Position numbers and translations under genes: made by a program. Below the pieces are notes generated by a model. The model did no database searches, was not told where the DNA came from, and worked only from the letters and a program-made list of their open reading frames with translations. Shown here piece by piece: positions 5,637-18,734 of a stretch of DNA of 64,000 nucleotides; position 1 is the stretch's first letter, and every line of letters starts with the position of its first letter. The DNA lies in assembly GCF_013408175.1 (NCBI RefSeq), contig NZ_JACBYW010000011.1:1-64000 (forward strand), given 5' to 3'. The stretch is from Actinopolyspora biskrensis. Lineage in GTDB: Bacteria > Actinomycetota > Actinomycetes > Mycobacteriales > Pseudonocardiaceae.

Positions 5637-5722
5637 GCGGAGACGAATGGTGCACACACCGGTACTCACGAGCCCGGAACCACCGCCGTCGAGTGCCGAG
5701 ATCGGTGGAAGGACATTGGCCG

Positions 5723-8218
5723 GTGACCCCGCACGATCCACCCGACCGGAAACCGGAACGCGTGCTGCTGCTCAGCGCCGACATAGGTGAGGGGCACAAC
5801 GCGACCGCGCGCGCCACCGAGGAAGCGCTGCGGCGGCTGTGGCCGGGGTGCGAAACACTCCGGTTGGACACCCTGAAGGTGATGGGACCCGGTGTGGGGC
5901 CGCTGTTCAGGTGGATCTACGTGCGCAACGTCGAATCCACACCGTGGCTCTACGACCTGTTCTACAACGCGCTGTGGCGTCAACGCTGGTTCGCCGACGC
6001 GTCCCGCGGGTTCGTGGGGGCCTGGGTCGGCCCGCTGCTGCGACGACGGATCCGGGACCACGCCCCCGATGTGGTGGTCTCCACCTATCCGATGGCCACT
6101 GCCGGGCTGGACCGTCTTCGCCGCGGAGGTGAACTGGCCGAGGTTCCGGTTTCGGCGATCGTCTCGGACTTCTGCCCCCACCCCTTCTGGGTCTACCCCG
6201 AGATCGACCTGCACTACGTCATGAGCCGGGCCAGTCTGCGGGCTCTCCACCGGGCTCAGCCCGACGCGGCCGGAGCCGTCTGCGTCCCTCCGGTAAGCGG
6301 GGACTTCCGGCCGGTCGCGAAGGAAACCGCCCGGGGCTCGGCCGGCGTGCCGGTGGCGGGGTTCCAACTGCTGGTCGCCTGTGGCTCGCTGTCGTTCGGT
6401 GCCGTGGAACGCGCCGTCGACACGGCACTGGCCGAACCGGGGATCGACCACATCGTGGTGGCCTGCGGCCGCAACGAACAACTGCGCCGGCGGCTGCTCG
6501 AACGCCCCGATCCCACCGGGAAACTGCTCCCGCTCGGCTGGCGCGACGACATGCCCGAGCTCACGGCCGCGGCCGACCTGGTGCTGTCCAACGCGGGCGG
6601 GGCCACGGCGCTCGAGGCGATGGCCTGCGGGCGCACCGTGCTCATGTTCGAACCGATCGCCGGACACGGCCGGGCCAACGCGGAGCTCATGGCCCGTGCC
6701 GGTCTGGCCGAGCTCTGCCACGACACGGACGAGCTGGCGAAAACGCTGCACGACCTCTCCACGGACGGGCAGCGGCTCGACCGGCGTGAGCGAGAAGTGC
6801 TGCGGCACGCCACTTCCGGGGATTTCACCGAACAGGTGAGCCGCCTCGCCCACCTGCCCCTGCACCGGGGAAGACGCGGACTGCGCGCGCAGGACCGGTT
6901 CTTCGTGCACGCGGCCGAGGCGGCCGTTCCACAGCAGACGGGAGCGATCCTGCGCCTGGACGGGGCGCCGGAGGGCAGCACCGCGCGGGACTGGGCGGGC
7001 CACCTCGCCGAGCTGATCGAACGGCGCGCCCGGCAGCTCCCCGTGCTGCGCAACGTGCTCGTCCAGCGTCGCCTGCGGGCTCCGAGCTGGTACACCGCCC
7101 CCCGGATCGAGCCCTGGCAGCATCTCGATCACCGGGACACCGACGAGCACGAGGCCTCCGGGGTGATCCGGGAGTTCTTCACCTCCGCGGTGCGCACCGA
7201 CCGCCCACCGTGGCAGCTCATGGTGCTGCGCACCCCGGAAAGAACGCTGATCCTGGCCAAGCTCCACCACGCCCTCGGGGACGGCATAGCCGTCACCAGC
7301 ACCCTCGTCCGGCTACTGCGCGACGACGGCGACCGGGGCGAGCAGCACGCCGAGGCCGCGAAACGGCAGGGGAAGTCCGCGGCCGGATCGGCACTGCCCA
7401 CCCTCCTGAGCTCCCGGTTCCGGGAGGTCCGCACGGCGGCACGCGGCTTCCTCAGCCTGGCGAAGGCAGGACCCGCCCCGGACGGCCCCCTGAACGGCCC
7501 GAGCACACCGGGGCGTTCCTTCGACTCGGTCGAGCTCCCGATGCGGGAGGTGCGGGCCGCGGCCAGAGCGCACGGCGTTCCACGCAGCGTCCTGTTGATC
7601 GCTCTGGTCGCCGAGTCGCTGCACAGGGTGCTCGACGAGCACGAGGGCACCACGAGCGGGCAGCGAATGCGCGTCATGGTGCCGCGCACCACGCGCACAC
7701 CGCGCGAGAACGCGACTCCCGAGGTCTTCGGCAATCACACCGTCGCGGTCTCGGTGGACCTCCCCGTCGGGCCGATGAGCCCCGCGGAACGCCTCGAACG
7801 GGTCACACGGCTGCTCCAGGACAGCCAGCGCAGCGGGCAGCCCCTCGCGGCCGGGATCGTCATGTCGGCCCTCGGGCTCCTCCCGACCCCGCTGCACCGT
7901 GGAATCGTCCGCACGATCTACCAGCGGCGGTTCTTCAACGCGATCGTCTCCGCGATGCCGGGCTCGCCCCGCCCACCCCGCGTGTGGGGTGCGCTGGTGG
8001 CCGGGGTCGTCCCGATCCTCCCGCTGGCCTCCGGTGTGGGAGCCGCTGTGGGGGTGATCAGCTGGGGGGAGATGGTCGGTATCGGGGTCACGGTGGACGC
8101 GCACAGCGGCCGCCTCGCCGAACGGCTGGGGCAACGAACACGTGAGGTCCTCGCGGAGCTGTCGAGCTCGCCCAGCGGACCGGAGATCTCACGTCCCATC
8201 CCGGAAGGACGAGGTTGA
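5723..8218 (+). CDS. Fusion: MGDG-synthase-like glycosyltransferase + WS/DGAT acyltransferase
   Basis: An 831-residue two-domain protein. Residues 1-380 are a GT-B glycosyltransferase of the monogalactosyldiacylglycerol synthase/MurG class: VLLLSADIGEGHNATARATEEAL at the N-terminus (the GGGH-like acceptor loop), then VACGSLSFGAVERA and LSNAGGATALEAMACGR, the UDP-sugar site. From about 390 to the end it is a wax ester synthase/diacylglycerol acyltransferase, with the catalytic HHxxxDG as KLHHALGDG and a hydrophobic C-terminal part. The two together suggest sugar transfer to a lipid and acylation by one polypeptide. The start is GTG 5723 with GGAAGG ten bases upstream. The stop overlaps the next start (TTGA). 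The acceptor and acyl donor are not predictable from the sequence. Confidence 0.85.
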   Translation: MTPHDPPDRKPERVLLLSADIGEGHNATARATEEALRRLWPGCETLRLDTLKVMGPGVGPLFRWIYVRNVESTPWLYDLFYNALWRQRWFADASRGFVGAWVGPLLRRRIRDHAPDVVVSTYPMATAGLDRLRRGGELAEVPVSAIVSDFCPHPFWVYPEIDLHYVMSRASLRALHRAQPDAAGAVCVPPVSGDFRPVAKETARGSAGVPVAGFQLLVACGSLSFGAVERAVDTALAEPGIDHIVVACGRNEQLRRRLLERPDPTGKLLPLGWRDDMPELTAAADLVLSNAGGATALEAMACGRTVLMFEPIAGHGRANAELMARAGLAELCHDTDELAKTLHDLSTDGQRLDRREREVLRHATSGDFTEQVSRLAHLPLHRGRRGLRAQDRFFVHAAEAAVPQQTGAILRLDGAPEGSTARDWAGHLAELIERRARQLPVLRNVLVQRRLRAPSWYTAPRIEPWQHLDHRDTDEHEASGVIREFFTSAVRTDRPPWQLMVLRTPERTLILAKLHHALGDGIAVTSTLVRLLRDDGDRGEQHAEAAKRQGKSAAGSALPTLLSSRFREVRTAARGFLSLAKAGPAPDGPLNGPSTPGRSFDSVELPMREVRAAARAHGVPRSVLLIALVAESLHRVLDEHEGTTSGQRMRVMVPRTTRTPRENATPEVFGNHTVAVSVDLPVGPMSPAERLERVTRLLQDSQRSGQPLAAGIVMSALGLLPTPLHRGIVRTIYQRRFFNAIVSAMPGSPRPPRVWGALVAGVVPILPLASGVGAAVGVISWGEMVGIGVTVDAHSGRLAERLGQRTREVLAELSSSPSGPEISRPIPEGRG

Positions 8219-9138
8219 GCGCGGCCGGGGCCTGGTTCACGGTGGCCGTCCCCGCCGCCCTGGTCGGCGCGGCCAGCTTCGGCATGGCGAGCGCGGTACA
8301 GCAACGCGCCACCAAACAGGTCCCCAACATCCGCACGCTCAACCCCCGGCTGCTGTTCGAGCTCGTGCGCAAACCCGTCTGGCTGGCCAGCGTCGGAACG
8401 GTCATCGTCGGACTGTCGCTGCAGGTGGTGGCGCTGGCCTACGGCCCCCTGATGCTGGTGCAGCCGCTGCTGGTCACCAGCGTGCTGTTCGCGGCGGTGC
8501 ACGCGGCGTGGCTGGCCCACAGGCGGCTGGACCGTCTCGTCGTGCTGGGGGCGCTCGCCTGCATGGGAGGGCTGTCCGCGTTCCTGCTGCTGGCCCGCCC
8601 CAAGGGGGGCACCGAGACGCTCGATCCACGGGCCGTTCCGCTGGCGGTGCTGCTGGGGGCGCTCACCGTCGCCTGCCTGCTGGCCGCGTCCCACTTTCCC
8701 GGCGAGATCCGCGTGATCGCCCTGGCGCTGGCCACCGGGGTGATATACGGCGTGACCGCGGCGCTGATGAAGGTCGTGGCCGATCAGTTCCGTACGGGCG
8801 GCATCGCGGCACCGTTCCAGCACTGGGTGCTGTACGCGGTGTGCCTGGTCGGTCCCTGTGGTTTCCTGCTGAGCCAGAACGCCTTCCAGCAGGGCAAGTT
8901 GATCTCCCCGGCCCTGGCCGTGATCACCACCGTCGACCCGCTCGTCGGTGTGGCCATCGGCATCAACTGGTTCGGGGAGAGCGTCAACTCCACACCGGCC
9001 GTGCTCGGCGGTGAGGCGGTGGCCGCGCTCGCCATAGTCGGGGGCATAGTGCTGCTGACCCATCGTGGGGAGACCCTGCGTCGGGTCCTGGAACGGGCCG
9101 ACTCCCCCGGAGACGAGAACGACCGGACGTGGGGGTGA
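8215..9138 (+). CDS. DMT-superfamily membrane protein
   Basis: A 307-residue integral membrane protein with about nine to ten hydrophobic segments, resembling actinobacterial EamA/NIPA-like DMT transporters: an early GAASFGMASAVQQRA, a duplicated helical bundle and a late SPALAVITTVDPLVGVAIGINWFGE. The substrate is unknown. Position between a lipid glycosyl/acyl transferase and an SDR suggests a role in moving or sensing the product of the operon, which is an inference. It begins at a TTG overlapping the previous stop, with a strong GGAAGG upstream, so it is translationally coupled. Confidence 0.8.
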   Translation: MSAAGAWFTVAVPAALVGAASFGMASAVQQRATKQVPNIRTLNPRLLFELVRKPVWLASVGTVIVGLSLQVVALAYGPLMLVQPLLVTSVLFAAVHAAWLAHRRLDRLVVLGALACMGGLSAFLLLARPKGGTETLDPRAVPLAVLLGALTVACLLAASHFPGEIRVIALALATGVIYGVTAALMKVVADQFRTGGIAAPFQHWVLYAVCLVGPCGFLLSQNAFQQGKLISPALAVITTVDPLVGVAIGINWFGESVNSTPAVLGGEAVAALAIVGGIVLLTHRGETLRRVLERADSPGDENDRTWG

Positions 9139-9896
9139 GACCGGTGGGAACCGCGCTGCGCGGACGGACGGTGCTGCTGACCGGCGGTTCTTCCGGAATC
9201 GGAGCGGCCACCGCCGAAGTGCTGGTACGACGCGGCTGTGACCTGGTCGTCACGGGAAGGGACGAGCAGGGGCTGAATCGGGTGGCCGAAAGGACCGGGG
9301 CGCGGACGCTGGCCGCCGATCTCGGTTCGGACGAGGGGCTGCGCCGGGTCGCCGATCGGGCCTCCCACGCGGAGGTCCTGATCAACAACGCCGGAGTCGG
9401 CTGGTCCGGGGAGCTGGAGGCGATGACGGGGCCGGAAGTCCACCGGCTGCTGGCGGTGAACCTGACCGCCCCCGTGGAGCTGACCAGGATGCTGCTGCCC
9501 GCCATGCGTGCCCGCGGCCGGGGCCACGTAGTCTTCGTCTCCTCGATCGCCGCGGTCGGAGTCGGCGGCGAAGCGGTCTACTCGGCGAGCAAGGCCGCGC
9601 TGCGGGCCTTCGCCGCCAGCCTGCGCTACGAGATCTCCGGGGACGGACTCACCGTGACCACCGTGCTGCCGGGCGCGGTTCGCACACCCTTCTTCCAACG
9701 TCGCGGTCTTCCCTACGAACGGAGCTTTCCCCGGATGCTGCCCGCGGAGAAAGCGGCCGAACAACTGGTGAGGGCCGTCGAGCGCGGCAGCGAGGAGATC
9801 TTCCTTCCCGGGTGGCTGGACCTCGCCGCACGTTTCCAGGGGGTGCTGCCCGGGACCTTCCACCGTTTGGGGCGCAGGTTCGGGCAGGTCCGCTGA
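9129..9896 (+). CDS. SDR-family oxidoreductase
   Basis: A classical short-chain dehydrogenase of 255 residues. It has the nucleotide loop TGGSSGIG, the NNAG motif (VLINNAGVGWSG), and the catalytic Ser-Tyr-Lys in VSSIAAVGVGGEAVYSASKAA. The Arg after the second strand (VTGRDEQ) fits NADP(H). The C-terminal GSEEIFLPGWLDLAARFQGVLPGTFHRL is typical of lipid- or sterol-related SDRs. The start overlaps the end of the membrane-protein gene by ten bases, making it the third gene of the operon. GTG 9135 and 9144 are alternative starts. Confidence 0.85.
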   Translation: MGVRPVGTALRGRTVLLTGGSSGIGAATAEVLVRRGCDLVVTGRDEQGLNRVAERTGARTLAADLGSDEGLRRVADRASHAEVLINNAGVGWSGELEAMTGPEVHRLLAVNLTAPVELTRMLLPAMRARGRGHVVFVSSIAAVGVGGEAVYSASKAALRAFAASLRYEISGDGLTVTTVLPGAVRTPFFQRRGLPYERSFPRMLPAEKAAEQLVRAVERGSEEIFLPGWLDLAARFQGVLPGTFHRLGRRFGQVR

Positions 9897-9974: not shown

Positions 9975-10676
9975 TCAGCGAGCTCCGGACGGGAACGGCA
10001 ACCAGCGCAACAGTCCGGCCGGCGTGACTCCCCCGCCGTCGCCGATCCGCAACCGGATCCCGTGGCCGCGCAGCTCTCTGCGAAACCACAGCAGCGACAC
10101 CACGGCGGCAAGCGCTACCAGTCCGTAGGAACCTGCGGTGCTCACCAGCAGGAACTCCCCGATGGTGCGTTGTGCGAGCATCCACAGCGCTCCCACGCCG
10201 TTGGCGGTGAACACTGCCGCCCACAGCAGCGACACCCGCCTGAAGAACCGCTGCAGCGCCACGTGCCCGATCAGGTGGGGTGGGAAGACGCAGAAGTCGT
10301 CCGCGAGCCGTGCGATGAAGGTTCGTTCGAAGGGCACCGTCGCCAGCAGCACGGCCGCTATGAGGAAGTTCTGCAGACTCGGCTGGAGGAAGTAGAGGAA
10401 GGCACTCTGGGAGACCACCCCCACCACCGTCCGGACGACCAGCAGCGCGGTCGTCAGCATCAGCACGGCGGGAACCCGCATCCGCAGGACCAGACGACAG
10501 GTCACAGCGGCGACCGTCCAGCCGAGGGCGGCCAGCAGGCCGCCCGTCAGATCGGTCAGGCTGAGCAGCAGGTAGAACAACCCGAGCGGCACGAGCGTGG
10601 TCTCGAGGAGTTTCTTACCAGCGTGCGCCAAGTGGGTTCGAATCCCGCTCAGCTGGACGGTGGTCGATGTATGCAT
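9975..10676 (-). CDS. VC0807-like polytopic membrane protein
   Basis: A 233-residue membrane protein with six to seven hydrophobic segments, alternating with short basic loops (LVPLGLFYLLLSLTDLTGG near the start, FLQPSLQNFLIAAVLLATVPFERTFIARLADDFCVFPP in the middle). It looks like the VC0807 family, whose function is unknown. The start is ATG 10676 with GTGAGG upstream; the GTG at 10694 is less likely. It lies 186 bases downstream of hpnH on the same strand, and that gap has a TACAGT -10-like box, so it probably has its own promoter rather than belonging to the hopanoid operon. Confidence 0.7.
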   Translation of the reverse strand: MHTSTTVQLSGIRTHLAHAGKKLLETTLVPLGLFYLLLSLTDLTGGLLAALGWTVAAVTCRLVLRMRVPAVLMLTTALLVVRTVVGVVSQSAFLYFLQPSLQNFLIAAVLLATVPFERTFIARLADDFCVFPPHLIGHVALQRFFRRVSLLWAAVFTANGVGALWMLAQRTIGEFLLVSTAGSYGLVALAAVVSLLWFRRELRGHGIRLRIGDGGGVTPAGLLRWLPFPSGAR

Positions 10677-10862
10677 GCGTACCTCACGCGGCACGTGCGG
10701 GAGGGTCGGTCCCGCACCTGTGCCGTGGACGGTTTCATCGCGCTACGACTGTGCGAACTTGTGCGACGAGCGGCGCGGCGGAAACTTGCCTTGGGCTTTC
10801 ACTGTATCCCGCCGGCACGCTACCGAACCGTCCCGCGTGAGTACAGCCACAACTGGAGACGA

Positions 10863-11864
10863 TCACCCGCGCACGGCGCGCAGGGACTCGCGCAACGAGC
10901 CCATCGTGGCCATGACGGCGGTGGGTTCGTACCCGCAGTGCGCCATGCAGTTCGCGCACCGCGAGTCCCGTCCCCTGCCGTAGGACTCCCAGTCGGTCTC
11001 CTCCAGCAGCTCGCGGTAGGACTGCGCGTAACCGTCGGCCATGAGGTAGCAGGGGCGCTGCCAGCCGTACAGCGAGTAGGAGGGAATGGCCCAAGCGGTA
11101 CAGGCGAAGTCCTTCTTCCCCTCCAGGAAGTCCAGGAACAGCGGCGAGTGGTTGAGTCGCCACTTCTTGCGCTTGCCGTCCGCGAAGGCCTTCTTGAACA
11201 GCTCCCTCGTCTCCTCGACTCCGAGGAAGTGCTCCTGGTCGGGAGCCTTGTCGTAGGCGTAGGCCGGCGAGAGCATCATCTGGTCGACCTGCAGTTCGTC
11301 GTTGAGGTAGTCCAGCACGTCGACGACCGTCTTCGGGGTGTCGGTGCTGAAGAAGGTGCTGTTGGTCGTTATGCGGAAACCGCGCTGCTGCGCGTCCTTG
11401 ATGTTGTCCACGGCCTGCGCGAACACGCCCTGCTTGCTCACGGAGGCGTCGTGCCGCTCCTCGAGACCGTCGATGTGCACGGCCCAGGAGAAGTACGGGG
11501 AGGGTTTGATCTTGTCGATCTTGCGCGGCATCAGCAGGGCGTTGGTGCACAGGTAAACGAATTTCTTCCGCTTGACCAGTTCGTCCACGAGCACCTCGAT
11601 CTCGGGGTGCATCAGCGGCTCACCGCCCGCGATGGAAACCACGGGGGCACCGCACTCCTCGACGGCGGAAAGGGCCTGGTCCACCGGCATGCGCTGCTTG
11701 AGCACGTTGGCCGGGTGCTGGATCTTTCCGCAACCCGCGCAGGCGAGGTTGCACGCGAACAACGGCTCCAACTCGAGAGTCAAAGCGTATTTCTTGCGCC
11801 TCAGAATCTTTTGTTTGGCCAAGTAAGCGCCGACCCTGATGGCTTGGCGGGGTGGAATGCCCAT
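10863..11864 (-). CDS. hpnH: Adenosyl-hopene transferase HpnH (radical SAM)
   Basis: A radical SAM enzyme that joins the 5'-deoxyadenosyl group to diploptene, giving adenosylhopane, the first step of side-chain extension to bacteriohopanepolyols. The 333-residue protein has the cluster motif CNLACAGC (Cys38, 42, 45), SIAGGEPLMHPEI for SAM binding, HIDGLEERHD, and a C-terminal Cys-rich SRCANCMAHCGYEPTA. The length equals the family norm. Its ATG overlaps the hpnG stop by one base (TGATG), so the two are coupled. It is the last gene of the hopanoid operon. Confidence 0.95.
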   Translation of the reverse strand: MGIPPRQAIRVGAYLAKQKILRRKKYALTLELEPLFACNLACAGCGKIQHPANVLKQRMPVDQALSAVEECGAPVVSIAGGEPLMHPEIEVLVDELVKRKKFVYLCTNALLMPRKIDKIKPSPYFSWAVHIDGLEERHDASVSKQGVFAQAVDNIKDAQQRGFRITTNSTFFSTDTPKTVVDVLDYLNDELQVDQMMLSPAYAYDKAPDQEHFLGVEETRELFKKAFADGKRKKWRLNHSPLFLDFLEGKKDFACTAWAIPSYSLYGWQRPCYLMADGYAQSYRELLEETDWESYGRGRDSRCANCMAHCGYEPTAVMATMGSLRESLRAVRG

Positions 11865-12484
11865 CACGGAACCTCTTTGCTCCAGCGAGATCGAACAGTG
11901 TCCTGCGAACCGGGCCCCGCAACGGTGCGGGACCACCGCAGCAGGGGGGCACCGGTGTCGCGTAGCCGCCGCAACGCCCCGACGAGTCGCCACGGCATTC
12001 CGGGGCCGATCAACGGTTGTCGCGGAGTGTCCAGAACGACCCGCACGACCGCGCAGGGGCGTTCCCCCGCCGCCGGGGCCAACACTCCCGACTCCATGTC
12101 CACAACCAGCGCGCCGGTGCGTGCCAGCGCGAGACGTTCGACTCCGGTCACGGGGTGATCGGTCGTCACCACGGTCCCCAGGCGAACGCTCAGACCGGAT
12201 CGACGCAACTCGCGAGCGAGCGGCTCGGGAGCGCACAGCGGTCTGGTCCGCTCCCCCGTGAAGACCCCGGTCCCCACGACCACGTCGCCGGCACGCAACG
12301 TCGGATCGAGTCCGCCACCCAGTCCGGCCACCGCCAGCGCGTCGAAGTCGCCCCCGACGAGCCTCGTGGCCGAACGGGCACTGCGTCGCCGGCCGTATCC
12401 GGTTCGTACGACCCTGGGGCCGGAACCGCGCAACGCTGCGGACTCCACTCGCAGCGGCGCACAGACGAGTAGCTCCGGCCTCAT
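11864..12484 (-). CDS. hpnG: Hopanoid-associated nucleoside phosphorylase HpnG
   Basis: A 206-residue phosphorylase-superfamily protein. The N-terminus (ELLVCAPLRVESAALRG) and VDMESGVLAPAAG, the Met-Glu-Ser nucleoside site, match HpnG, which removes adenine from adenosylhopane to give a phosphoribosyl-hopane. It is shorter and more divergent than purine nucleoside phosphorylases, as is usual for HpnG. It starts eight bases after the shc stop and overlaps hpnH. Its place between shc and hpnH makes the assignment secure despite weak motifs. Confidence 0.88.
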   Translation of the reverse strand: MRPELLVCAPLRVESAALRGSGPRVVRTGYGRRRSARSATRLVGGDFDALAVAGLGGGLDPTLRAGDVVVGTGVFTGERTRPLCAPEPLARELRRSGLSVRLGTVVTTDHPVTGVERLALARTGALVVDMESGVLAPAAGERPCAVVRVVLDTPRQPLIGPGMPWRLVGALRRLRDTGAPLLRWSRTVAGPGSQDTVRSRWSKEVP

Positions 12485-12492
12485 GAACGCAC

Positions 12493-14508
12493 CTATTCCC
12501 CTCGGACGGCCCGCCGGTACCGACCGAGCGCGGCGAGCGGGAAAACCTGCCGGTAGAGGTGGTAGTTGATGTAGAAGTCACCGGGAAAACCCGTTCCCGT
12601 GAACTGCGGCTCCGACCAGTACCCACCCGGTTGCTGGGTCGCCACCAGAAAAGCGATCCCCCCGCGTACCGCTCGCGTGTCGTGGCGCCCCACGGCGAGC
12701 AGGGCGAACAGTGCCCAGGCCGTCTGCGAAGCCGTCGAGTCCCCACGCCCGATCCACGCCGGGTCGTCGTAGGAACGCAGGTCCTCGCCCCAGCCACCGT
12801 CCGGGTTCTGGTGATCCTCCAGCCAACGCACCGCACGCCGCAACGCGTGGTGCTCCGTGGGGATCCCGGCCCGCACCAGGGCGGGGACCGCCGCCCCGGT
12901 GCCGTATACGTGGTTGACGCCCCACCGCCCGTACCACGAACCGTCGCCCTCCTGGTTCTCCAACAACCAGCGCACCCCGTCGCGCACCACCGGGTCGTCG
13001 CGGTCGCCGGTCTCGACCAGCGCTTCCACGACGTGGGCGGTCACGTCGGCGGAGGGCGGATCGATCACGGCCCCGAAGTCGCAGAACGGCAGCTTGTTGA
13101 CCAACCAACGAGTGTTGTCCGCGTCGAAGGCCGCCCACCCCCCGTCCTTGGAGCGCATCCCGCGCAACCAGCGACGTCCCCTGGACACCGCCGAAGCGAC
13201 CCGGTCCTGTTCGGCGTGGCCGGTGCGGGTGAACGCCAGCAGGACCTCGGCGGTGTCGTCTATGTCGGGATAGCCGTCGTTCTCGAACTCGAACGCCCAG
13301 CCACCCCCTCCCGGGAGCGTGGGGCGTCGAACGGCCCAGTCACCCCGGACCATGATCTCCTCACCGCGGACGTACTCCAGGGCGCGGTGCATCGCGGGGT
13401 CCTCCCCCGGGACTCCGGCGTCGTGGAGGGCCTGGATCCCGAGCACCGTGTCCCACACGGGGGACTGGCACGCCTCCATCCTGCGCACCCTTCCCTCTTC
13501 GGTGTCCTCCCTGATCAGGAACCCCTCCAGACCGGTGATCGCCGTACGCAGCACCGGGTGGTCCAGCGGATAACCCAGCAGGTTCAGGGCGATGATCGAG
13601 TACACCCACGGGGGCTGGATACCGCCCCAGCAACCGTCCGCCTCCTGTCGAGCGACGATCCACTCGGCGGCCCTGCGCATCGCCTGCCTGCGCAAGGGAC
13701 GGACCGGGTGGCGGTCATAGCCGTGCAGCACCCGGTCGAGCGTGTGGAACACGGTGTCCCAGGCGGAACTACTCGAGCCCTGCTGCAGCCGCCCGGTCGG
13801 ACCACCCGTGCGCAGTTCCTCGGTCCGCACTCCGAGCTCGCGCTGCGGCCGCAGAGTGCTCACCACCGTCAGCGGGACTATGGTCTGGCGAGCCCAGCAC
13901 CCCCAGTCGGCCAGGTTCAGCGGGAACCAGCTCGGCAGAAAAACGATTTCCGGGGGCATCGTGGGGAGATCGTCCCAGGACCACTGGCCGAACATGGCCA
14001 ACCACATCCGGGTGAAAACCCGGGTGCGCTCGACGCCGCCCTGCCGCAGGATCCAGTCGCGGGCACTGGCCATGTGCTCCTCGGCGACGTCGTCGCCCGC
14101 GATCTTCAGCGCCACATAGGCCTCGACGGTCACCGACAGATCGCCGGGGCCGCCGTAGAAGGTTCCCCACGTCCCGTCGGAGCGCTGCTGGGAGCGTACC
14201 CAGCGCGCGCTCTCGGCCGCCTCCTCCGCCGTGAGGATCCCGAGGAACCGCCGAAGCATCAGATCCTCGGCGTCCATCGTCACGTTGGTCTGCAACTCCC
14301 CCTTCCACCAGCCGTGCTCGTGCTGCAGGGAGAGCAGGTGGTCGCGGGCGGCCTCCATAGCGGCGAGCCAGTCCGGCTCCCCGCTCTCCCACCGCGTGTC
14401 CCCCCGGTCCGCCAGCACGGTGCGCGACCGCTCCCCCGTCTCGGGAGATGTCTCCGTCCCGTGCGCATCGGGCTCGACGGTCTCGGTTTGACGCAGGGAT
14501 CCGGTCAC
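12493..14508 (-). CDS. shc: Squalene-hopene cyclase
   Basis: Cyclises squalene to hop-22(29)-ene and diplopterol as a monotopic membrane protein. The 671-residue product has the catalytic DxDD as DIDDTAE (Asp414-Asp417), many QW repeats (QQRSDGTWG, QEADGCWGG, QEGDGSWYGRWG, QNPDGGWGE), and the central GGGWAFEFEN. The start is GTG 14508, which has GGAGG five bases upstream and overlaps the polyprenyl synthase stop by four bases; the longer upstream frame belongs to that neighbour. It carries an extra charged N-terminus of about 40 residues. Confidence 0.96.
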   Translation of the reverse strand: MTGSLRQTETVEPDAHGTETSPETGERSRTVLADRGDTRWESGEPDWLAAMEAARDHLLSLQHEHGWWKGELQTNVTMDAEDLMLRRFLGILTAEEAAESARWVRSQQRSDGTWGTFYGGPGDLSVTVEAYVALKIAGDDVAEEHMASARDWILRQGGVERTRVFTRMWLAMFGQWSWDDLPTMPPEIVFLPSWFPLNLADWGCWARQTIVPLTVVSTLRPQRELGVRTEELRTGGPTGRLQQGSSSSAWDTVFHTLDRVLHGYDRHPVRPLRRQAMRRAAEWIVARQEADGCWGGIQPPWVYSIIALNLLGYPLDHPVLRTAITGLEGFLIREDTEEGRVRRMEACQSPVWDTVLGIQALHDAGVPGEDPAMHRALEYVRGEEIMVRGDWAVRRPTLPGGGGWAFEFENDGYPDIDDTAEVLLAFTRTGHAEQDRVASAVSRGRRWLRGMRSKDGGWAAFDADNTRWLVNKLPFCDFGAVIDPPSADVTAHVVEALVETGDRDDPVVRDGVRWLLENQEGDGSWYGRWGVNHVYGTGAAVPALVRAGIPTEHHALRRAVRWLEDHQNPDGGWGEDLRSYDDPAWIGRGDSTASQTAWALFALLAVGRHDTRAVRGGIAFLVATQQPGGYWSEPQFTGTGFPGDFYINYHLYRQVFPLAALGRYRRAVRGE

Positions 14509-15515
14509 TGATTCCTCCGGAGAACGAAATCGGCGAGTTCGGTCAGTCCTTCGGTCACGCCTTCGCAGTCGGCGCGGTGCAGTTGGCGGCGCGCGGCCGT
14601 CAATCTGCGTTCCGTCTCGGCTCTGGTCCAGTCCTCGGAACCGGAACGGCGCAGCAGTTCGGCCGCCTGCTCCAGCTGCGTCTCGGTGAGGGGTTCCGGC
14701 TGTTCGTAAAGCTCGCGCAGCCGCTGCCCCGCGTCCGTGCCGGAGTTGAGCGCATGAACCACCGGAACGGACTTCTTGCGAGCCCGCAGGTCGGAAAGCA
14801 CGGGTTTTCCCGTCTCCTCCGGGTCCCCCCAGACACCGAGCAGATCGTCGACGAGCTGGAAAGCCATTCCCAGTTCGAAACCGAAGGCGTGCAGTCTTTC
14901 CACCGTGTGCTCCGAAGCCCCGGCCAGCAGAGCTCCGATGGAACACGAACAGGCGATCAGCGCGGCCGTCTTGCCCGCGATCATGCGCTGGCATTCCTCG
15001 ATGCCGACGTCGATGCGTTGTTCGAAGTCCAGATCCGCCGCCTGGCCCGCGATGAGGCTGCGCACGGTTCCCGCGAGATCACGAGCCGCCCGCAGCGCAC
15101 GCGGCGAGTCCTCCTCCAGCACCACGTCGTTGGCCAGTCCGAGCAGCGCGTCCCCGGCCAACAACGCCGTGGAGCGCCCGAAAACGCTCCACGCGGTCGG
15201 ACGGTGCCTGCGGGAGAGGTCCCCGTCCATCAGATCGTCGTGCAGCAACGAGAAGTTGTGCACCAGCTCGACGGCGGTCGCACCGGCCAACGCGTCACGT
15301 TCCGTTCCGTTCCCCGCACGTGCGGAGAGCAGGACCAGGGCGGGACGCAGCGCCTTGCCCGAACGCTCCTCCGGAGTTCCGTCGGCGGCCGTCCAGCCGA
15401 AGTGGTACTCGCTGACCCGTCGGGTGTCCGGGTCCAGTCGGCCGATGGCCCGGCGCAGATGTGGGTCGACCGTTTCCCTGGCTCCGACCAGGACTGAGGG
15501 AACCGTCGCGGTCAT
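14505..15515 (-). CDS. Polyprenyl synthetase of the hopanoid operon
   Basis: A trans-isoprenyl diphosphate synthase of 336 residues, probably supplying farnesyl (or geranylgeranyl) diphosphate for squalene formation. The first Asp-rich motif is DDLMDGD and the second is DDLLGVWGD, which lacks the last Asp of the usual DDxxD, a known variant in this subfamily. KTAALIACSCSIGALLAG matches the helix-D region. An ideal GGAGGTGA precedes the ATG. It ends in a GTGA overlap with shc, and hpnE ends three bases upstream of it, so it is firmly part of the operon. Chain length cannot be settled by eye. Confidence 0.92.
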   Translation of the reverse strand: MTATVPSVLVGARETVDPHLRRAIGRLDPDTRRVSEYHFGWTAADGTPEERSGKALRPALVLLSARAGNGTERDALAGATAVELVHNFSLLHDDLMDGDLSRRHRPTAWSVFGRSTALLAGDALLGLANDVVLEEDSPRALRAARDLAGTVRSLIAGQAADLDFEQRIDVGIEECQRMIAGKTAALIACSCSIGALLAGASEHTVERLHAFGFELGMAFQLVDDLLGVWGDPEETGKPVLSDLRARKKSVPVVHALNSGTDAGQRLRELYEQPEPLTETQLEQAAELLRRSGSEDWTRAETERRLTAARRQLHRADCEGVTEGLTELADFVLRRNQ

Positions 15516-15518
15516 GCG

Positions 15519-16877
15519 TCACCTCCACGCCACACTGCGATGGCTGTCGATGGCCCGGTCCACTACCCGGGCCGCCGTGTTCCCACTGCGCACAGCCCCC
15601 TCGAGGGTGTCCGGCCAGCCGGTGTCGGTCCACGCCCCCGCCAGCACCAAACCCGGTCGTCCCGTCCGCCCCGAGGGGCGCAGTCGTCCGGTTCCGGGTT
15701 CCGGCAGGAAGGTCGCGGCGGGTTCACGGGTGATGAAGAAATCCAGCACCCCGGCTTCACGTGCTGCCGGGAACAAGCTTTCCACCGCGGGCAGGAACTC
15801 GGCACGCAACCGCGCCGAGCGCACGTCGACTCGATCGTGTGCCGCCGACAGCGAGACCACCAGGTACTGTCCGCTCTCGGCGTTCGCCACCTCGGTGCGG
15901 TCGAACAACCACTGCACCGGCGAGTCGAGCGCAGCCGCCATGGGAAGTCTCGTGACCGGACGGTCGAAGTGGATGTGCACGTTGATGATCGGGGCACGCG
16001 ACAAACCGCTCCAGTCGGGTTCCTCGGGCGTGCGTCGCTGTTCCAGCAGCTTTCCCGCCGCCACGTTGGGCACGGCGAGTACCACGGCATCGGCCGTGAG
16101 CTCCTGGTTCCGGTCCCCTTCCCTGGTCCGAACACGGTAGTCACCGAGTTCGCCGCTCACTTCCAGAACCTTGCTCCGGGGCAACAGCCGCACGCCGGCC
16201 TCGAGCAGTTTCTCCCTGGCAGGATCGCCGTGCACCTCGCTCAGCGGTCGTTCGACGGTCCCGATGTCCCCACCCGCGGCGGTGTCCAGCATTCCGGTCC
16301 GAAACACCTTGACGGCCAGGGCAAGGGAGGCGTGCTCCGGCACGGCGTTGAGCGCGGCCGTGCAGAACAGTTCCCACAACGCTGTTACCGCCCGGCGCGG
16401 CTCCCCGCGGGAACGAAGCCAGGAAGCGAAATCGGTCCGGTCCAGGCTCGGGTCGTCCGGGTCCAACCTCCGCAGCGCGAGCGCCGTGCGCGCGGCGGCG
16501 AGCCGCTCGCGCGGGGACAGCGCCTTGTGTCCGATCAGCGCGGGCAGCAAGTGCGCCGGGGCGGGAAGCCTGCTCCGCCGCAGCGTCCAGCTCGCGCCCG
16601 TGGGAGTGATCACGGGAACGCGGAAGCGCGGTTGGATCCGTACCTTGTCCACCGTTCCCAACCGACGCAGCAGGGCCGTGTACTCCGAATAGCAGCGCAG
16701 GAAAACGTGCTGTCCGGTGTCGACTGTCAGTTCCCCTCTGCGGAAGGAGTAGGTGGCTCCGCCCAGCCGCGCGCGGGCTTCCAGCAGGGTGACTTCGAAC
16801 CCCGCGTCACGACATCCGAGTGCTGCCGAGATGCCCGCCAGGCCACCCCCGACGACGATCACGCGTCCAGGGGTCAT
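15519..16877 (-). CDS. hpnE: Hydroxysqualene dehydroxylase HpnE
   Basis: An FAD-dependent amine-oxidase-fold enzyme that reduces hydroxysqualene to squalene, the last of the HpnCDE steps. The 452-residue protein opens with RVIVVGGGLAGISAALGCRDAGFEVTLLEAR, the FAD Rossmann loop. It continues with GGATYSFRRGELTVDTGQHVFLRCY, typical of HpnE, and ends with GLVLAGAWTDTGWPDTLEGAVRSG, the C-terminal FAD contact. Its ATG at 16877 overlaps the end of the hpnC-hpnD gene (ATGA). The upstream extension of the frame lies inside the neighbour and is not used. Confidence 0.93.
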   Translation of the reverse strand: MTPGRVIVVGGGLAGISAALGCRDAGFEVTLLEARARLGGATYSFRRGELTVDTGQHVFLRCYSEYTALLRRLGTVDKVRIQPRFRVPVITPTGASWTLRRSRLPAPAHLLPALIGHKALSPRERLAAARTALALRRLDPDDPSLDRTDFASWLRSRGEPRRAVTALWELFCTAALNAVPEHASLALAVKVFRTGMLDTAAGGDIGTVERPLSEVHGDPAREKLLEAGVRLLPRSKVLEVSGELGDYRVRTREGDRNQELTADAVVLAVPNVAAGKLLEQRRTPEEPDWSGLSRAPIINVHIHFDRPVTRLPMAAALDSPVQWLFDRTEVANAESGQYLVVSLSAAHDRVDVRSARLRAEFLPAVESLFPAAREAGVLDFFITREPAATFLPEPGTGRLRPSGRTGRPGLVLAGAWTDTGWPDTLEGAVRSGNTAARVVDRAIDSHRSVAWR

Positions 16878-18643
16878 GAGGACATCCCCGCGAAGGAACG
16901 CGCGGCGACCACGGCCTTCTGCCAACCGGACAGACCGGTCCGCCCGCGCATCACCAGGGCCGGGTCATCGGTAATGCGCCGCAGCAGTTCGTGGTAGATA
17001 CCGGCCATCGCGGCACAACAGGCTCGGCTTCGATGATCGAGCATCGGCAACAAGCGGAGTCCTTCCCCGTACCAGCGTTCGGCCCGTTGGCTCTGGAACC
17101 GAACCAGCTCGGCCACCTTCGATTCGTCGTCCGTGAACATTCCCCGCGAGTCCAGGTCGAGAGTCACCCCGAAACGGCGCAGATCCTCCTGCGGCAGGTA
17201 GATCCGGCCACGGCGGCGGTCCTCCAGCAGGTCGCGCAGGATGTTGGTCAGCTGCAGGGCCACTCCCAGCGCGTCCGCGCGCTCGGCTGCCACTCCGGTC
17301 ACCGGATGACCGAACACTCCCAGGGAGAGCCTGCCGATCGAGCCTGCCACGCACCTGCAGTACTGCGCGAGCTGCTCGAAGGTCTCGTAGTCGTTTCCGC
17401 GCACATCCGCTTCGCAGCCGTCTATGAGCTCGTGAAAGGCATCCAGCGGAATCGGCAGTCCGTGCGCGGCGTCGGCCAGCGCCACCAGCATCGGGTCCTT
17501 GGAGTCCCGGTGGATCCCCCGCAACTTCGTCCGCGTGTGGTCGAGTCGCTCGAGCTTCCGCTCGGTCGACAGCGTCCCGTCCCCGATGTCGTCCACTCTG
17601 CGCGCGAAGGCGTACACGGCTGACAGGGCCTTGCGCTTGCCCGCGGGGAGCAGCCGGATCCCGTAGGAGAAGTTGCGGGCCTGCGTTCTGGTGATCTGCT
17701 CGCAGTACTCGTAGGCGCTCTCGGTCCGGTCGTGCCCGCCCCCGCTCGTGGGCGCCAGCGAGAGCCGGGCCCACTCGCCCAGCATCCGCATCCGCCCCGG
17801 GCGGATCCGTACCGCCAGCGGGTCGTGACCTGCGGGCCGGAACGCACGGGCGGTGGCCAGCCCGCCTGCCACATAACCGGCCACGGCCAATCGCGCCAGC
17901 CCGGAGAGTCGCGCGACGAGCGGCTGTCCGGCACGAAGCATCCCGACCGCACGGTCCACTTCGAACCAGACGAGTCCGCGTAATTCGCTCGAGGCCGTGG
18001 AAGTGGCGAGCTCGGCTTCGCCGCAACCGAATTCGTGCAGGTCCTCGGCAGGAAGGTAGATCCGGTCCTGCTGGTAGTCCTCGGCGATGTCCTGCGAGTG
18101 TTCGAGTATCTGCAGCGCGGAGCAGATCCGGTCGGAAAGTTCCGTCAGTTCCGGGTCCGCCCTCCCGAAGATGTAGAGCACGAGCTCGCCCACCGGGTTG
18201 GCCGCGTACGTGCAGTAATCCAGCAGCTCCGCGAAAGTCCCGTAACGTCGCACGTACTGGTCCCGCCGGTTGGCGGTTATCAGCCGGGCGGGAACCTCGC
18301 GGGGAATCCCGCACTCGTGCACCGTGGGCGCGAAGGCCCGGAGCAACGGCAGGCGCGGACTGCCTTCGTAGACGCGAACGAGGTCGGAATCCAGCAGATC
18401 CAGCAGGCCTTCACGAGGCCCGCACGCCTCGTCTCCGGCGTAATCGACGAGCCGGGCGAAGCCGTACACCGCCATCAGGTGCTGCCTGATCCGATACGGC
18501 AGCACCCGAGCAGCGACCGTGAAGTTCTCCGACTGGGCCCGCGCCAGCACGTCTCCCGTTTCGGGCAGTTGGCCGGGCAACACCACCTCGAACGATCGTG
18601 CAGGCTGCCGAGCGGGGCGGGCACGGTCCGGTAGCGCAGCCAT
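16874..18643 (-). CDS. HpnC-HpnD fusion (hydroxysqualene synthase + presqualene diphosphate synthase)
   Basis: One uninterrupted 589-residue frame holds two complete trans-isoprenyl (squalene/phytoene synthase) domains. The N-terminal half (about 25-295) is HpnC-like: ENFTVAARVLPYRIRQHLMAVYGFARLVDYAGDEA and HSQDIAEDYQQDRIYLPAEDL. The C-terminal half (about 305-589) is HpnD-like: TRTQARNFSYGIRLLPAGKRKALSAVYAFARRVDDIGDG and NILRDLLEDRRRGRIYLPQEDL. HpnD condenses two farnesyl diphosphates to presqualene diphosphate and HpnC turns it into hydroxysqualene. They are usually separate adjacent genes. The N-domain's first Asp motif is degenerate (VDYAGDE for xDDxxDE), as can occur in HpnC. The start is ATG 18643 with AGGAGG five bases before; it is the first gene of the operon. 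Confidence 0.93.
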   Translation of the reverse strand: MAALPDRARPARQPARSFEVVLPGQLPETGDVLARAQSENFTVAARVLPYRIRQHLMAVYGFARLVDYAGDEACGPREGLLDLLDSDLVRVYEGSPRLPLLRAFAPTVHECGIPREVPARLITANRRDQYVRRYGTFAELLDYCTYAANPVGELVLYIFGRADPELTELSDRICSALQILEHSQDIAEDYQQDRIYLPAEDLHEFGCGEAELATSTASSELRGLVWFEVDRAVGMLRAGQPLVARLSGLARLAVAGYVAGGLATARAFRPAGHDPLAVRIRPGRMRMLGEWARLSLAPTSGGGHDRTESAYEYCEQITRTQARNFSYGIRLLPAGKRKALSAVYAFARRVDDIGDGTLSTERKLERLDHTRTKLRGIHRDSKDPMLVALADAAHGLPIPLDAFHELIDGCEADVRGNDYETFEQLAQYCRCVAGSIGRLSLGVFGHPVTGVAAERADALGVALQLTNILRDLLEDRRRGRIYLPQEDLRRFGVTLDLDSRGMFTDDESKVAELVRFQSQRAERWYGEGLRLLPMLDHRSRACCAAMAGIYHELLRRITDDPALVMRGRTGLSGWQKAVVAARSFAGMSS

Positions 18644-18734
18644 GTCCACCTCCTACCCCGCACAGTTGTTGAGGGCGTCCATTGTCGACAGCGTAGATCG
18701 CTGATGGACACGGCGCAGGCCTGCTGAGCTCATC

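Follow-up and report, generated by a model that had tools for sequence, protein, structure and literature searches.

Hopanoids are the bacterial counterpart of cholesterol. In the excerpted text of PMC12583986, a study from 2025, derivatives of bacteriohopanetetrol (BHT) are described as extensively used biomarkers, the role of HpnH is established, HpnG is called a putative phosphorylase, and the enzyme that converts ribosylhopane to BHT "has not yet been established". The same excerpt describes the HpnI-HpnK-HpnJ route to BHT cyclitol ether, in which a glycosyltransferase acts on BHT and no acyltransferase is named. Here we examine a locus from Actinopolyspora biskrensis (contig NZ_JACBYW010000011.1, positions 1 to 64,000; this whole stretch of 64,000 nucleotides is the window) in which a gene fusing a glycosyltransferase (GT) to a wax ester synthase/diacylglycerol acyltransferase (WS/DGAT, or WS) is followed by genes for a DMT-type membrane protein and a short-chain dehydrogenase/reductase (SDR). 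An earlier note on this DNA had read the three genes as a lipid operon for an acylated glycolipid. The fusion, the trio and the idea of an acylated glycolipid all fit what we found, but the genes do not stand free: their neighbourhood and their co-occurrence with squalene-hopene cyclase (SHC) tie them to hopanoid biosynthesis and make a connection of the fusion and the trio to hopanoids very probable.

The fusion gene, its partners and their neighbourhood

The fusion open reading frame (ORF) occupies 5693..8218 on the plus strand and has 841 codons from 5693 or 831 from a GTG at 5723; the alignment points to the GTG as the more likely start. Its GT-B half (MGDG-synthase/UgtP-like) spans 5723..6850, with an approximate end, and its WS/DGAT half spans 6851..8215. 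In the 841-residue form all four Pfam domains exceed their curated cut-offs: MGDG_synth at residues 35-179 (54 bits, cut-off 25), Glyco_tran_28_C at 226-368 (39.6 bits, cut-off 22), WS_DGAT_cat at 397-629 (49 bits) and WS_DGAT_C at 680-823 (56.9 bits). The acyltransferase motif HHALGDG lies at residues 515-521 of the 831-residue form (about 7265-7285); H515, H516, D520 and G521 are unchanged in 17 of 17 aligned fusions, and HHxxxDG was found in 20 of 20 sampled fusions. The GT half carries GEGHN at residues 22-26 and GGATALE at 292-298, with G22, G24, H25, G292, G293, A294, T295, L297 and E298 unchanged in the same 17. An AlphaFold2 model built from these 17 fusions has a mean pLDDT of 83.6 and a pTM of 0.65, and Foldseek matched it to the WS/DGAT structures 6chj (first) and 7nxg and to the MGD1 structures 4x1t and 4wyi. 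A profile search of solved structures matched the first half to a processive diacylglycerol glucosyltransferase (9wde) and MGD1 (4wyi), and the second to two bacterial wax ester synthases. The fusion with an intact HHALGDG, which the earlier note had proposed, is thus borne out by a single frame, by domain scores and by fold.

Both halves have well-described relatives. With the MGDG synthase/processive diacylglycerol glucosyltransferase family the fusion shares the GT-B fold, the GxGH and GGxTxxE motifs and Pfam scores above cut-off; it differs in its attached acyltransferase, in its linked hopanoid genes and in scoring far under the NCBIfam equivalog cut-offs for diglucosyl diacylglycerol synthases, reaching neither PRK13609 (119 against 500 bits) nor PRK13608 (55.5 against 557 bits). 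With the WS/DGAT acyltransferases (6chj, 7nxg) it shares the fold and HHxxxDG, but it is attached to a GT, falls in a separate clade and lies below the cut-off of NCBIfam TIGR02946 acyl_WS_DGAT, the wax ester/triacylglycerol subfamily (181.9 against 309.95 bits). All five other WS/DGAT proteins tested pass that model (344-515 bits), including L002, encoded in the window's own genome. Of 15 other WS/DGAT paralogues compared as a control, only five keep both histidines of HHxxxDG and the rest have HQ, HP or HA; the ten with the second histidine replaced are L002, L156-L159, L162-L164, L166 and L167.

The two genes that follow have overlapping frames, as the earlier note had stated. The DMT/NIPA-like membrane protein (8215..9138, plus strand; NCBIfam NF038012 DMT_1, 104.8 bits against a cut-off of 50) starts with a TTG at 8215, overlapping the end of the fusion by 4 nucleotides, and the SDR (9129..9896, plus strand) starts with a GTG at 9129, overlapping the DMT gene by 10 nucleotides. 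The SDR sequence contains TGGSSGIG, NNAG and YSASK, which we take to be the motifs of a classical SDR.

To follow the fusion across genomes we used a sample of 61 relatives, of which 27 have SHC over the cut-off (ten weaker matches were counted as negative), and the best 80 of 105 relatives found by a scan of named genomes, hereafter the named loci, for which stretches of at most 10 kb per side were fetched. Full-length matches across the fusion junction occur in 20 of the 61 relatives: all 10 of the genus, 9 from other genera within the family and 1 from a different family. Both domains lie in a single open frame in 73 of the 80 named loci; the remaining seven are Amycolatopsis loci with the GT alone. 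The domain pair was one the earlier note had suggested searching for, and the trio is conserved with it, with a DMT gene in 70, an SDR in 69 and the same-strand order fusion-DMT-SDR in 58 of the 73 named fusion loci. Neither of the weaknesses that the note had allowed for materialized. The halves are not always separate among unrelated neighbours: the fusion recurs in the named loci, and hopanoid genes lie near it in most of them. A sequencing or assembly error joining two genes near 6890-6900 was rejected and is hardly conceivable, given that the same frame recurs in those 73 named loci, which come from many genomes, and that the junction is matched at full length in the 20 relatives. In several Amycolatopsis (L114, L115, L120, L124) the WS half matches as two separated or shortened pieces.

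The hopanoid operon of the window lies directly downstream on the minus strand (10863-18649) and converges on the trio. It comprises HpnH, adenosylhopane synthase (10863..11840; TIGR03470, 511 bits against 225); an HpnG-like phosphorylase (11864..12484; TIGR03468, 78.4 bits, below the cut-off of 187.1); SHC (12493..14433, start uncertain, with the match at 12508-14364; TIGR01507, 749 bits against 431); a polyprenyl diphosphate synthase (14505..15515); HpnE, hydroxysqualene dehydroxylase (15519..16880; TIGR03467, 396 bits against 283); and HpnC with HpnD (16874..18649; 432 against 250 and 414 against 279 bits). HpnH, SHC, HpnE, HpnC and HpnD are thus each over their curated cut-offs; the HpnG-like gene scores below that of its family, and its place between HpnH and SHC repeats in relatives. 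The same hopanoid genes are found around the fusion in most relatives. Across the 73 named fusion loci, at least one hopanoid gene is present in the fetched flank in 65, SHC in 61 and HpnH in 56. Where more than 20 kb was fetched, SHC is present in 53 of 59 loci, the misses being L078, L084, L093, L098, L107 and L124. We searched 17 genomes for SHC, namely those of five misses (all except L124), of five loci on cut contigs and of the seven GT-only Amycolatopsis loci; 16 gave a match, 15 of them over the curated cut-off, and the exception was L105, a metagenome-assembled genome (MAG).

The fusion also co-occurs with SHC at the level of genomes. Among the relatives, 20 of the 27 with SHC and none of the 34 without it carry the fusion (Fisher p 1.4e-10 by genome; 11/18 against 0/32 and p 8.5e-7 by genus; both tests ignore the tree). 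A sample of 394 genomes of the class contains SHC in 90 at E 1e-100 (88 over the cut-off) and the fusion in two, both SHC-positive; the GT half alone, at E 1e-40, is found in nine more, seven of them SHC-positive. At the same threshold, only the window genome (G000) in a phylum sample of 366 matches over both halves, and the GT half is matched in 10 other genomes, one match (G551) reaching residue 425. Within the samples searched, the named loci included, the fusion is restricted to SHC genomes, with one MAG excepted.

Some features of the operon and its surroundings stand apart from this comparison. A single ORF of 591 codons (16874-18649, minus strand) encodes both HpnC and HpnD, and the polyprenyl synthase at 14505-15515 (minus strand) reaches 430 bits against a cut-off of 450 in the model for family 2 encapsulin cargo polyprenyl transferases. 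An HpnG-like phosphorylase and IspH (LytB) form a single ORF at L067:890-2452 (minus strand) and in 37 more fetched loci; these 38 were counted inside hopanoid operons, and some share a genome. Between the trio and the operon lies a VC0807-family gene (9975..10694, minus strand; 93.8 bits against 65), with relatives in 40 of the 73 named fusion loci. The genes upstream of the fusion (DeoR, ferredoxin, H132, O-methyltransferase and qcrB) were found near the trio, among the loci examined, only in Actinopolyspora, Halosaccharopolyspora and partly Halopolyspora, and for this reason we do not count them in the cassette.

The SDR and the hopanoid side chain

The earlier note had made the SDR a step of the glycolipid route. 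Relatives of the SDR also adjoin HpnH or SHC in loci without the fusion. This association with hopanoid genes, independent of the fusion, makes the hopanoid side chain, and not the glycolipid, the probable substrate of the SDR; an action on the product of the fusion was considered and dropped, since the SDR adjoins HpnH in fusion-less loci. No SDR was found in the fusion-less loci L130, L131, L136, L139, L143, L144 and L147, some of which are on short contigs.

We searched for the SDR in 80 of 116 SHC-positive genomes, leaving out 7 congeners and 29 genomes of genus g73, which we took for Streptomyces. A match at E 1e-30 occurs in 73 of the 80, every one at 149 bits or more, and lies within 15 kb of SHC in 57, on another contig in 15 and 244 kb away in one. 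As a control we chose 80 SHC-negative genomes from the same samples; 20 of them have some SDR at E 1e-30, and only G094 (169 bits) reaches 149 bits. A tree was built of 61 SDRs; of its 38 rows from hopanoid loci, 37 fall in a clade of 46 (support 90/97). The 38th, L107, was included as the top match left in a locus with no clear SDR; it groups with another long branch. The other members of the clade are two g73 SDRs, the SDRs of two SHC-positive genomes that carry them on another contig, three paralogues from SHC-positive genomes and the SDRs of two SHC-negative genomes. This distribution, the linkage and the SDR motifs make the enzyme a plausible ribosylhopane reductase, an assignment that we place somewhat short of even, and the locus thereby offers a candidate for the missing step from ribosylhopane to BHT.

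A cluster of genus g73 (L144) provides a useful comparison. It contains relatives of HpnE, polyprenyl synthase, SHC, HpnG and HpnH in a row, as here, but unlike the window it continues with IspG (540.6 against 345 bits), DXS (606.7 against 466 bits) and an HpnO-like aminotransferase, and nothing in the 19 kb fetched matches the fusion, DMT or SDR. We tentatively call this aminotransferase HpnO because of where it lies, after HpnH, IspG and DXS. With it as the query, strong matches were obtained in 15 of the same 80 SHC-positive genomes, and one weak match in G021. When G021 is excluded, the aminotransferase is found in 6 of 7 SDR-negative genomes against 9 of 73 SDR-positive ones (Fisher 1e-4), and G155 is the sole SHC-positive genome of the 80 with neither. 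The HpnO-like aminotransferase would direct ribosylhopane to its alternative fate.

Several results count against the reductase assignment and the argument from HpnO. Two SHC-negative genomes, G094 (L168) and G072 (L169), hold members of the SDR clade. The SDR is below threshold in five of seven sampled g73 genomes, and in the other two it is far from SHC or on another contig; at the same time, the excerpt of the review PMC10301674 lists BHT among the hopanoids determined in work on S. coelicolor. Because BHT is listed there while most sampled g73 genomes fall below threshold, another BHT route or reductase may operate in g73/Streptomyces, or the SDR may have another role. The name HpnO was not confirmed, as NCBIfam gives general aminotransferase models, none over its cut-off among the matches listed, and five of the six SDR-negative genomes with the aminotransferase belong to g73, which is nearer two events than six. 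In the SDR tree, L168 and L169 nest next to an SHC-positive genome from their own family.

Unfused relatives and a PAP2_3 fusion

A second type of WS/DGAT fusion, in which a PAP2_3 domain precedes the WS/DGAT domain in the same frame, is found on SHC-bearing fetched stretches: L043:13897-15933 (minus), L040:13348-15345 (minus), L130:11876-15016 (minus) and L132:1-3939 (plus). The first two come from SHC-positive relatives without the GT-WS fusion and the last two from class genomes. A PAP2-WS query matches 8 of the 394 class genomes at E 1e-60 or better, and all eight are among the 90 with SHC, an overlap with a chance of 5.8e-6 if the two were independent. Seven of the eight have SHC over the cut-off (G357 does not), and five matches cover both domains, those in G114, G396 and G357 being partial. 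Among the 61 relatives, G023, G035 and G057 match both domains and all have SHC; G033, also SHC-positive, is matched over the PAP2 part; in four others, the SHC-positive G047 among them, the matches are confined to short frames of PAP2 size.

When 46 WS domains were placed in a tree, after removal of two short extra pieces, three separate groups emerged: the PAP2-WS proteins (10 rows, 99/95), the other WS/DGAT paralogues (15 rows, 100/99) and the GT-WS group (100/99), made up of 20 fusions and the GT-less L039. One of the 10 PAP2-WS rows, L148, is a long branch that lacks the motif; the PAP2 part of this row and of L150-L154 was identified by the search match and not by Pfam. The WS domain of L039 (8763-10463, plus strand) adjoins HpnH, has no detected GT and is nested in the GT-WS clade. 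L039 has apparently lost its GT half, and the WS tree fits a single origin of the fusion.

The GT tree adds a corresponding picture for the other half. The GT-only genes of Amycolatopsis sit beside Amycolatopsis fusions within the fusion clade and have therefore lost the WS half, whereas the unfused GTs close to other hopanoid operons (L041, L042, L129, L134, L138) lie across a 100/100 branch, and therefore represent a separate recruitment. Of 13 loci whose only GT is unfused, 10 have a DMT gene next to it, six of these in Amycolatopsis, and several unfused GT or WS genes also stand beside hopanoid genes or in SHC-positive genomes. In Pseudonocardia, a second, divergently transcribed MGDG-like GT stands beside the fusion (L091:8655-10013, minus strand; L102, L111, L037 and others), and in the four sampled it forms its own clade in the GT tree.

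These patterns suggest a broader proposal, which we advance tentatively and regard as doubtful in its full form: a modular actinobacterial system for acylated head groups on hopanoids, in which one acyltransferase fold was joined separately to a GT and to PAP2_3, each fusion limited to hopanoid producers, with the DMT flippase as exporter and the SDR as ribosylhopane reductase. The PAP2_3 domain would possibly be a phospho-head-group transferase. Both types of fusion can serve as gene markers in the search for acylated hopanoids.

Competing readings and related systems

We lean slightly towards the trio being a hopanoid-tailoring cassette. HpnH and HpnG would be expected to yield ribosylhopane, which the SDR would reduce to BHT. 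To judge from its fold and neighbourhood, the GT-B half would transfer a sugar from a nucleotide-sugar to a BHT hydroxyl, and the WS/DGAT half, with its fold and intact HHxxxDG site, would esterify the glycosylated hopanoid with a fatty acyl-CoA; the joining of both halves would allow the lipid to pass between the sites at the inner membrane face. The DMT protein, a candidate flippase, would flip the product outward, and this end product would be an O-acylated glycosyl hopanoid. That the fusion itself glycosylates and acylates a hopanoid is, in our estimate, just on the probable side of even.

The main rival to this cassette is a glycerolipid route alongside hopanoids, because the nearest studied GTs use diacylglycerol. 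The GT half would make a monohexosyl-diacylglycerol, the WS/DGAT half would give it a third acyl chain, the DMT protein would flip this acyl-glycolipid, which would pack with hopanoids in the membrane, and the SDR would be a separate hopanoid enzyme. Consistent with this, among solved structures the GT half is closest to the processive diacylglycerol glucosyltransferase and MGD1, its nearest NCBIfam models are diglucosyl diacylglycerol synthases, though at 119 against 500 bits, and the seven Amycolatopsis GT loci (six next to a DMT gene, one at the end of a contig) have no hopanoid gene in the fetched flanks. Yet a glycerolipid pathway would be expected beyond SHC genomes, the presence of the fusion in 20 of 27 SHC-positive and none of 34 SHC-negative relatives argues otherwise, and the seven Amycolatopsis genomes also have SHC; we judge this route to be rather unlikely. 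The fusion of GT and WS/DGAT might instead conceal independent modifications, with the WS/DGAT domain esterifying a hopanoid or BHT directly and the GT adding sugar to a different hydroxyl or a separate molecule. WS/DGAT domains do occur with no detected GT, both beside HpnH in L039, which lies inside the fusion clade of the WS tree, and as PAP2_3 fusions in SHC-positive genomes. However, the GT-WS fusion is retained in most sampled rows of its clade, the WS tree fits one origin and loss of the GT in L039, and such long retention suggests coupled steps, which leaves independent action improbable. Ordinary wax ester or triacylglycerol synthesis with a chance fusion would account for the Pfam WS_DGAT domains and the intact HHxxxDG, but it is very improbable when set against the score of 181.9 bits in a model (cut-off 309.95) that five of five paralogues pass, the placement of the fusion outside the clade of 15 other WS/DGAT paralogues (100/99) and its co-occurrence with SHC.

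Some observations weigh against the hopanoid-tailoring cassette itself. The closest solved relatives of the GT half (9wde, 4wyi) use diacylglycerol, a possible acceptor here too. Eight of the 73 named fusion loci have no hopanoid gene in the fetched flank; seven of these genomes have an SHC match elsewhere (that of L068 only as two pieces below the cut-off), and in the eighth, the MAG L105, the SHC search was negative. Conversely, the class genomes L131, L136 and L144 have SHC and no piece of the GT-WS-SDR set in the fetched stretch, so the cassette is not needed for hopanoids as such. As the fusion is found in 2 of 394 class genomes and 1 of 366 phylum genomes, the cassette elaborates hopanoid synthesis in a limited set of lineages and lies outside its core.

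All the families involved are known. We found no description of the GT-WS fusion, of its hopanoid setting or of the PAP2-WS counterpart in the literature that we searched. The titles and abstract starts covered, with subscription journals mostly outside the search, held no description of a GT-WS/DGAT fusion, a hopanoid acyltransferase or a hopanoid SDR, and the PAP2-WS counterpart did not turn up in searches of which none was aimed at PAP2. A hopanoid cluster of Kutzneria albida is named, without gene details, in the excerpt of PMC4210621. Acylated glycosyl hopanoids do exist, since N-acylglucosaminyl-BHT from Alicyclobacillus is cited in the excerpt of PMC8537080. That compound is likewise an acylated glycosyl hopanoid, but an N-acyl one, whereas the WS/DGAT half predicts an O-ester. 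We know of no gene assigned to it, and our literature search returned no title or abstract start that assigns one.

The cassette proposed here would resemble the HpnI-HpnK-HpnJ route in that a GT acts on BHT and would differ from it in the acyltransferase; HpnI, we presume, belongs to a different GT family from the GT half of the fusion. From the locus we predict that Saccharopolyspora, Actinopolyspora, Pseudonocardia and their relatives make an O-acylated glycosyl hopanoid, and hydrolytic work-ups could miss such hopanoid esters. A polycyclic lipid carrying a sugar and an acyl chain is also found in the acylated steryl glycosides of plants and other eukaryotes and in the cholesteryl acyl-glucosides of some bacteria, which are made by separate enzymes of other families. 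By analogy, the O-acylated glycosyl hopanoid would be a bacterial counterpart of the eukaryotic acylated steryl glycosides.

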